Assembly (NCBI GenBank): GCA_015493685.1
Contig: WGCS01000260.1
Span: forward strand, 1 to 50,802
Source of the DNA: Bacteroidales bacterium
GTDB lineage: Bacteria > Bacteroidota > Bacteroidia > Bacteroidales > UBA1556
DNA: 50,802 bases
Direction of reading: 5' to 3'
Shown: one piece after another, positions 9,294-11,305 of the stretch
Position numbering within the stretch: position 1 is the first letter of the stretch
Layout of the letters: every line of letters starts with the position of its first letter
Notes under the pieces: generated by a model
Seen by the model: the letters and a program-made list of their open reading frames with translations, nothing else
What the model was told of the DNA's origin: nothing
The model's database searches: none
Position numbers and translations under genes: made by a program

Positions 9294-10124
9294 ATGAAAA
9301 TTTCTATTTTACTTATTATTAGCTTTCTTTTTACTATCAATAGTTCATTGGATGCGCATCAATTTAAAACTAAAAACGATAGTTTAAATTGTCACATCAA
9401 CAAAGCCTATGTTAAAACTTTAGCCACTGATTTTGTTCCCATAATAATTAGCCCAATTCATTGGAATAGTAAACAATGGATTGGAGCAGGGACAGTACTG
9501 GGTACGGCTGCTTTTTTATATAGCAAAGATAAGCTTATCGCAGATTTCTGGCAACAACATCGTAGCACAGCGCTAGATAATGCTGACAAATACTTTTTCG
9601 ACCCATTTGGCAAAATGTATTATACAATACCACTAATGGGTGCATTCTATATTTATGGTGCTGCAAGCCATAAAAACAAACCCAAAAGAGTTGCCATGGA
9701 TTTTGTACAAGCAAGTTTATACTCCGGTATTATAGTAACAATAGTAAAAAATATTGGGCACCGTCATCGTCCCTTTCAAACAAAAAATCATAATCCTTAC
9801 CTTTGGGATGGCCCACTAACACAAGACTGGGGCCACAACAGTTTCCCTTCGGGACACACAATTATGGCCTTTACTTTTGCCTCCGTAATAGCTACTCATT
9901 ATCAAAAAACAGTTTGGGTACCAATAATAGCCTATTCGTTAGCCAGTATGGAGGCAATGGCACGTATGTATGCCGACAAACACTGGAGCTCTGATGTATT
10001 AATTGGAGGCGCGATGGGATACGCCATTGGTACTTTCGTTGTTAATAGAAACCGTTATCGAATCAAAACCATTCCTATAATAAGCAGCAACTTCACCGGA
10101 TTAAATTTAATCTATAGCTTATAG
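9294..10124 (+). CDS. PAP2-family membrane phosphatase
   Basis: A 276-residue protein with a signal peptide or first transmembrane helix (residues 3-20) and several hydrophobic segments. The three PAP2 phosphatase motifs are present: KNIGHRHRP (K-x6-RP), FPSGH, and ARMYADKHWSSD (R-x5-H-x3-D). Relatives dephosphorylate undecaprenyl pyrophosphate, phosphatidylglycerophosphate or lipid A at the membrane; which applies here is open. It lies 18 bases after mazG, so co-transcription is likely. An extended soluble N-terminal stretch precedes the catalytic core. Confidence 0.88.
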   Translation: MKISILLIISFLFTINSSLDAHQFKTKNDSLNCHINKAYVKTLATDFVPIIISPIHWNSKQWIGAGTVLGTAAFLYSKDKLIADFWQQHRSTALDNADKYFFDPFGKMYYTIPLMGAFYIYGAASHKNKPKRVAMDFVQASLYSGIIVTIVKNIGHRHRPFQTKNHNPYLWDGPLTQDWGHNSFPSGHTIMAFTFASVIATHYQKTVWVPIIAYSLASMEAMARMYADKHWSSDVLIGGAMGYAIGTFVVNRNRYRIKTIPIISSNFTGLNLIYSL

Positions 10125-10312
10125 TACAAATGGAAAACACCAAAAAAAATTAAGGCTCTATCATTCATCTTAATTTGAAACTGATATTTAGAACGTTATC
10201 AAAAACCTTATTCTGGTATAAGACTAGTACTCATATATTCTATTCTTCGCTGAGTACTAAATTGAAGCAAATTATCACCCTCTTTTTTTAAACTAAGAAA
10301 CACCAATTTATC

Positions 10313-10457
10313 CAAAAAAAGATACCCGCTGTCCCCAGCGGGTATTCCCCTAACAAAATGAAAAAATTATTTACCAAATACAGACTCCTCCGTATTTGGA
10401 ACGTCGGCAACTCCAGGAGGAGTTAATGCCAACGCACTCTATTTGTTTACTAAATCC
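10313..10457 (-). ncRNA. Candidate structured small RNA
   Basis: Read on the minus strand: a TATCTTTG promoter element (10469-10462), then about 145 nt without a plausible ORF, then a 9-bp terminator (ATACCCGCT/AGCGGGTAT, 10345-10322) followed by seven T. Between them are two hairpins. Hairpin 1 (10434-10402) has a 12-pair stem with one mismatch and one bulge. Hairpin 2 (10399-10374) pairs CCAAATAC with GTATTTGG around a 10-nt loop. The hairpin 2 loop contains GGAGGAG, exactly complementary to CTCCTCC in hairpin 1, allowing a kissing or switching interaction. A 6S-like or other trans-acting RNA is possible; no family is claimed. The -33 element is weak. Confidence 0.6.
10322..10345 (-). terminator. 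Terminator of the candidate small RNA
   Basis: A 9-bp GC-rich perfect stem with a 6-nt loop is followed on the minus strand by TTTTTTT (10320-10314). The T-run is absent on the plus strand, so the direction is clear. Confidence 0.85.
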
Positions 10458-10558
10458 GATGCAAAGATAATACATAATTTCATATTTAAGTATCTAAACA
10501 CTTAATTAGTGTTAATATAAATATATAACCATCTTAATCAGACTATTAGAATAGTTAT

Positions 10559-11305
10559 TTATAAAGTATTAGAAATTAAAGCTACTCCTACACCAACTAA
10601 AATAATAAGTAATTTATATATATTAAACCGATGTGAAGTATCAGACTCAAATAAAATAGTAGTAGAAACATGGAGAAAGATTCCAACTAAAATTGCCATA
10701 ATTATTTTATAAAAATAATCAAGATCTATTCCTAAACTCTGGCCAATATGGCCTCCAATTAAAGCACCCAAAGGAGCTGCTAATGCAAAAATAAGTATTA
10801 AACCATAGGCCTTTACACGCGATAAATTAGCACTTAAGAACAAGCCCATTAAAACTATTGCTATAGGCACTTTATGTATTACAATGCCCAAAAGCAGAGT
10901 ATGTTGTAGGTCAGCATGGTTATGAAATTGAGAAGCAAAAGGAATTCCCTCAAAGAAAGCGTGTAAACTAATCCCTATAAGCAAAGCATAAGGAGAAAAG
11001 TTAAATGAAATTTCTTCGTGCTGATGTTCATGATCAGATTTTTCACAATGCCCATGACCATGCTCAGCCCCCCCGGAGATGTATTCTATTAGTAATTGAA
11101 GGAAGAAACCTCCTAGCACATAATACCCAAGGTAGTTGTTATTAAAGCCACTAAATATATCAGGAATAATATGAGTAAAAGCAACAGTTAACAAATAAGC
11201 CCCACTAAAGGCAAGTAGTAAACGAAGAATTTTTTCGTTTACATTAAAACGATCAACCAGAAAGGCACTTATAATTACTGTAAAAAATAATATCAATATA
11301 CTCAT
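10559..11305 (-). CDS. ZIP-family divalent metal transporter
   Basis: A 248-residue integral membrane protein with about seven to eight hydrophobic segments. ZIP proteins move zinc, iron or manganese into the cytoplasm. The metal-site helices are visible as LHAFFEGIPFA and IHKVPIAIVLMG (HxxxE-type signature). A cytoplasmic His-rich loop (HGHGHCEKSDHEHQHEE) lies before the first of them, typical of zinc-handling members. A -7-like element (TACTTTTG on the minus strand, 11333-11326) lies 20 bases before the ATG. It appears monocistronic. Direction and metal specificity are inferred from family. Confidence 0.88.
   Translation of the reverse strand: MSILILFFTVIISAFLVDRFNVNEKILRLLLAFSGAYLLTVAFTHIIPDIFSGFNNNYLGYYVLGGFFLQLLIEYISGGAEHGHGHCEKSDHEHQHEEISFNFSPYALLIGISLHAFFEGIPFASQFHNHADLQHTLLLGIVIHKVPIAIVLMGLFLSANLSRVKAYGLILIFALAAPLGALIGGHIGQSLGIDLDYFYKIIMAILVGIFLHVSTTILFESDTSHRFNIYKLLIILVGVGVALISNTL

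Follow-up and report, generated by a model that had tools for sequence, protein, structure and literature searches.

The window, the whole 50,802-nt stretch of DNA analysed here (contig WGCS01000260.1 of a Bacteroidales bacterium), holds a gene for a metal transporter of the ZIP family and, behind it on the same strand, a small RNA (sRNA) at 10459-10314 that appears to be structured and to have a promoter and terminator of its own. A sequence-only reading had proposed a promoter-like sequence, two hairpins and a strong terminator on the minus strand at this place, and all of them are present. From upstream to downstream, the features are:

10559 to 11305, minus strand: ZIP-family metal transporter gene (PF02535, E 2.2e-30)
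10462 to 10469, minus strand: promoter -7 box TATCTTTG of the Bacteroidota type TAnnTTTG, matched in 10/10 homologous loci
10314 to 10459, minus strand: sRNA gene of about 143-147 nt (fold z score, BLAST and covariance-model homologues in the genus, covariation)
10436 to 10457, minus strand: 5′ block GGATTTAGTAAACAAATAGAGT, invariant in six close copies (alignments A1/A2)
10401 to 10435, minus strand: hairpin 1, with a basal helix, an asymmetric internal loop and an apical CC-NCCY-GG stem-loop (fold, covariation)
10416 to 10422, minus strand: CTCCTCC, spanning the 5′ arm and loop of hairpin 1
10374 to 10399, minus strand: hairpin 2 (fold, covariation)
10385 to 10391, minus strand: GGAGGAG, in hairpin 2
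10347 to 10373, minus strand: U-rich linker TAAATAATTTTTTCATTTTGTTAGGGG, nearly invariant (alignments A1/A2)
10314 to 10345, minus strand: intrinsic terminator, stem 10345-10322 followed by the T run CTTTTTTT (terminator search; the stem covaries)

Judged from the position of the promoter box, transcription would start at about 10459-10456. The predicted fold is a closed two-hairpin junction followed by the terminator, with a minimum free energy of -57.7 kcal/mol compared with -34.6 +/- 4.1 in dinucleotide shuffles (z -5.7; 0/200 shuffles were as good). When both strands of 10100-10700 were searched, the sRNA terminator was the sole terminator found, and shuffles yield 0.1. The window has no Rfam match at the gathering score; at a relaxed E-value the region has no match beyond chance, and nine homologous loci match no Rfam family at all. 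A tRNA/tmRNA search of the window found none. The sequence-only reading had also suggested a 6S-like RNA, and 6S RNA is indeed structured, intergenic and of similar length, but the Rfam models 6S and 6S-Flavo have no match in the window or in the nine homologous loci, and the fold, a two-hairpin junction with a terminator, does not form a long bulged rod. A palindrome, AACACTAATTAAGTGTT, lies at about 10495-10511 (minus strand), just upstream of the window's promoter, and is not seen in the upstream sequences of the relatives.

The sRNA occurs once in the window's own genome. A DNA search (BLAST) within the same genus returned five full-length copies at 77-83% identity and fragments in three others, and a pattern scan of named genomes showed that the copies belong to uncultured Bacteroidales. 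Six copies were used to build a covariance model, which found the sRNA in 10 of the 11 genomes of the genus; the genome without a match is 71% complete. Searched with models R1 and R2, 393 genomes of the order gave no convincing copy outside the genus, and 395 genomes of the phylum, searched with R2, gave none either. Weak matches there (in G332, G156 and others) were inspected and lie mostly at coding ends, apparently driven by the terminator. Viral contigs held no copy. As far as is detectable by such searches, the family appears to be restricted to one genus. In one divergent member (G005, locus L044, reverse strand), an exact 82-bp tandem duplication lies just upstream of the RNA match; the repeated segment takes in the promoter box together with the 5′ half of the gene, giving two promoter/5′ units before one hairpin-terminator part.

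Covariation among the copies points to a conserved structure. In a structure-blind MAFFT alignment, 94.5% of the cells of the predicted structure are paired, and both-side changes occur at 15 pairs, compared with 6.9 in shuffled alignments and 0-5 in slid controls; 0/500 shuffles attain any of the covariation measures. A hand alignment of the two hairpins, which was fitted to the structure and is hence biased in its favour, has 96.7% paired compared with 72.5% (0/2000 shuffles reach this). Both-side changes are seen in six of the eight pairs of the hairpin 1 basal helix and in 6/9 pairs of hairpin 2, and the terminator stem (helix 5) covaries as well. The hairpins drift in sequence and vary in length from copy to copy while pairing is retained. 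The conservation and covariation check that the sequence-only reading had called for thus came out in favour of its unannotated structured sRNA: the gene has its own promoter box and terminator, and is kept in relatives with stems that go on pairing as their sequence changes. It is a real sRNA family, previously uncatalogued and of a known general kind. The junction is predicted to be closed by a further helix, P1, in which AACAAA (10447-10442) plus GAG of the 5′ block pairs with TTTGTT (10357-10352) of the linker. Covariation neither supports nor refutes P1, since its sequence is the same in all six close copies; the helix is also predicted for the divergent copies of G005 and G004, whereas G002 and G008 lack the prediction. 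A candidate pseudoknot between GGGG and the NCCY loop is feasible, by inspection, in 8/10 copies.

The genomic setting is constant on one side of the gene. A ZIP gene lies directly upstream on the same strand in 10/10 sRNA loci, with 30-121 nt between its stop codon and the promoter box, and no terminator was found between ZIP and the sRNA promoter in the ten loci. The box TAnnTTTG is present in all ten, where the chance of it is 0.6% per locus, and in each of the six close copies it precedes the start of the model by 6 nt. The far-side neighbour varies: it is a PAP2 phosphatase in the window, G003 and G002, and different genes elsewhere. A riboswitch or leader, which would control a same-strand gene downstream, does not fit: in the window the next gene past the terminator is convergent, and in relatives this flank varies. 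Type I 3′ UTR-embedded sRNAs have their own promoter behind a coding gene. The context fits such a 3′ UTR-embedded sRNA with its own promoter: in its sequence features the new RNA shares the promoter behind a same-strand coding gene and, apparently, a terminator used by both.

While the hairpins change, two other parts of the RNA, its first 20 nt and the linker, scarcely vary in sequence. The 5′ block (ATTTAGTAAACAAATAGAGT) is invariant, part of it being predicted to pair in P1, and the end or core of the linker, GUUAGGGG, is also present in the divergent copies of G005, G004 and G002. The complement of the linker resembles an A-rich Bacteroidota translation start (CCCCTAACAAA-ATG-AAAAAATTATTTA). 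Among the loops, that of hairpin 1 is NCCY in 6/6 close copies and that of hairpin 2 is GGAG in 4/6, with UACA or UUAU in the remaining two. A search for Hfq found none in any of the 11 genus genomes (G000-G010), and the same search recovers Hfq in five control genomes.

The reading we favour, at an even chance or slightly better, is a lineage-restricted, Hfq-independent regulatory sRNA downstream of ZIP whose invariant segments pair with translation-initiation regions. It builds on sequence conservation, conserved structure, the promoter box, the terminator, synteny and the absence of Hfq. The sRNA would be transcribed from its own TAnnTTTG promoter behind the ZIP gene and on the same strand, and read-through from ZIP probably stops at the sRNA terminator too. 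Two fast-changing, pair-conserving hairpins would be held in a P1-closed junction, and the working parts would be the 5′ block, which is invariant, and the U-rich GUUAGGGG linker. These segments could pair, without Hfq, with the translation-initiation regions of mRNAs and repress their translation, as GibS and FopS do, and the sRNA might thereby couple another function to metal uptake. A trans-acting riboregulator, as the sequence-only reading had it, remains the best guess, although the target search found no significant target: a duplex search over 1229 starts and 155 orthologue pairs (G003, G007) gave no conserved target beyond shuffled controls. The U-rich segment has a slight excess (63, where the highest of 12 shuffles has 52), perhaps for no other reason than that A-rich starts match a U-rich RNA. 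In an antisense search of the genus for CCCCTAACAAAATG (up to 2 mismatches), the only exact matches among those listed are the sRNA gene itself, and the matches show no consistent excess over a reversed control. It also counts against pairing in trans that part of the 5′ block is predicted to be tied up in P1.

The main rival to pairing in trans is protein binding, an improbable reading but the most credible of the alternatives. Here the invariant segments and small loops (NCCY, GGAG) would dock an RNA-binding protein, which the RNA titrates; this could be RbpB or another RRM protein, or else RNA polymerase, by analogy with 6S RNA. Readout of sequence by a protein would predict P1 strands that are invariant rather than covarying, as they are, and the conserved loops point the same way; in Bacteroides, RbpB is bound by sRNAs in single-stranded regions (PMC11697453). 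Set against this are the missing 6S match, the two copies that lack the GGAG loop and the two genomes without a predicted P1. The element might instead act only in cis, as an elaborate 3′ UTR and terminator that governs how stable the ZIP mRNA is or brings its synthesis to an end; the promoter box would then matter little. The fixed place behind ZIP with no intervening terminator is in keeping with this, but the box is there in every copy with constant spacing in the close ones, a terminator alone leaves the invariant 5′ block and linker unexplained, and downstream of the ZIP homologues of three other families of the order no comparable element could be detected. A purely cis-acting role is judged unlikely, more so than protein docking.

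Much less probable still is the internal switch or kissing pair that the sequence-only reading had seen in the two Shine-Dalgarno (SD)-like and anti-SD-like motifs. CTCCTCC of hairpin 1 is exactly complementary to GGAGGAG of hairpin 2 in the window, as described, but at least one 7-mer reverse-complement pair occurs in 38% of shuffles, so complementarity of 7 nt is not rare alone, and both motifs are mostly occupied within their own hairpins. Only the window and its closest sister, G001, have a complementarity of 8 nt (p 0.01 and 0.03), which in G001 includes a wobble; in the four other full-length copies (G009, G003, G007 and G010) the complementary runs are 4, 3, 3 and 2 nt, which is chance level. 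Forcing the two motifs to pair costs 12.8 kcal/mol in the window and 7.9 in G001. SD use is itself at background: SD-like tetramers lie upstream of 4.6% of starts in G003 and G007, compared with 3.5% when shuffled and 5.7% further upstream, and starts in both genomes are A-rich and SD-poor. Because the complementarity is so restricted, the fold cost high and SD use so slight in relatives, neither a switch nor a kissing SD mimic is to be expected. The same background bears on an sRNA that pairs with SD sequences through a C-rich loop: the NCCY loop is there, but the SD-like tetramers it would meet are no commoner than expected. A small protein or leader peptide is the least probable reading of all. 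The claim that the region has no open reading frame holds at 50 aa or more; shorter frames exist, a 21-codon TTG frame (minus strand) and a 22-codon ATG frame (plus strand), whose peptides are not preserved in relatives. The plus strand gives MKKLF after an A-rich start in 5/6 close copies, but past MKKLFT the sequences diverge fully, with lengths of 19-37 aa. At the RNA level the hairpins covary, and their length is not constant; a plus-strand promoter search had no match.

Pairing in trans at translation starts has precedents among the sRNAs of related bacteria. GibS (BTnc035) of Bacteroides thetaiotaomicron is about 145 nt long and consists of a conserved 5′ part, two hairpins, a linear region and a terminator; its seed pairs at start codons, and it has a PM2 promoter (-10/-30 motif), lies between other genes and is largely unfolded (PMC7366714). 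The new sRNA, also from Bacteroidales, shares this length and order of parts, a likeness of layout. The two differ in promoter, since all ten new copies have TAnnTTTG, and in fold, the new sRNA being strongly folded with its 5′ block partly paired. Members of the FopS family (14 paralogues of about 65-70 nt, bound by RbpB) repress at start codons, and one is 3′ UTR-derived (PMC11697453). They resemble the new sRNA in their canonical -7 type promoter and, under the model proposed here, in start-codon action, but are shorter and many where the new sRNA is about 145 nt and single-copy in its own genome.

A different RNA-like element, with no Rfam match in the loci tested, was observed in family f124 of the same class (loci L092/L098, 1501-1617; L093, 1501-1619; L099; L100; L101). 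It has variable hairpins and then a U-rich invariant GAGTTTTTTTGTTAG just before the terminator, and four of the five loci have a sigma factor gene close by, in most cases together with its anti-sigma gene. A model built from these elements (R3) matches the genus copies, several times only over the GUUAG-terminator part, and gives another site in the window's own locus almost as good a score as the sRNA. It is conceivable, if rather doubtful, that both are members of one class of folded sRNAs, old, spread across Bacteroidia and independent of Hfq, in which P1 closes a junction of two fast-evolving hairpins and the terminator is preceded by a U-rich GUUAG(G/U)G tail that does not vary. Members of this class would be found downstream of envelope or stress genes (ZIP in this genus; in f124 the neighbour is a sigma factor gene), and the tail they have in common would serve for pairing or for binding a protein.

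Studies of Bacteroidota sRNAs have been conducted mainly in Bacteroides. The family described here is a strongly covarying one in an uncultured lineage with no detectable Hfq and almost no SD use, and it separates the parts of an RNA that are under sequence constraint from those under pairing constraint alone. Its fixed place behind ZIP makes a possible connection of RNA regulation with metal uptake concrete and open to testing.
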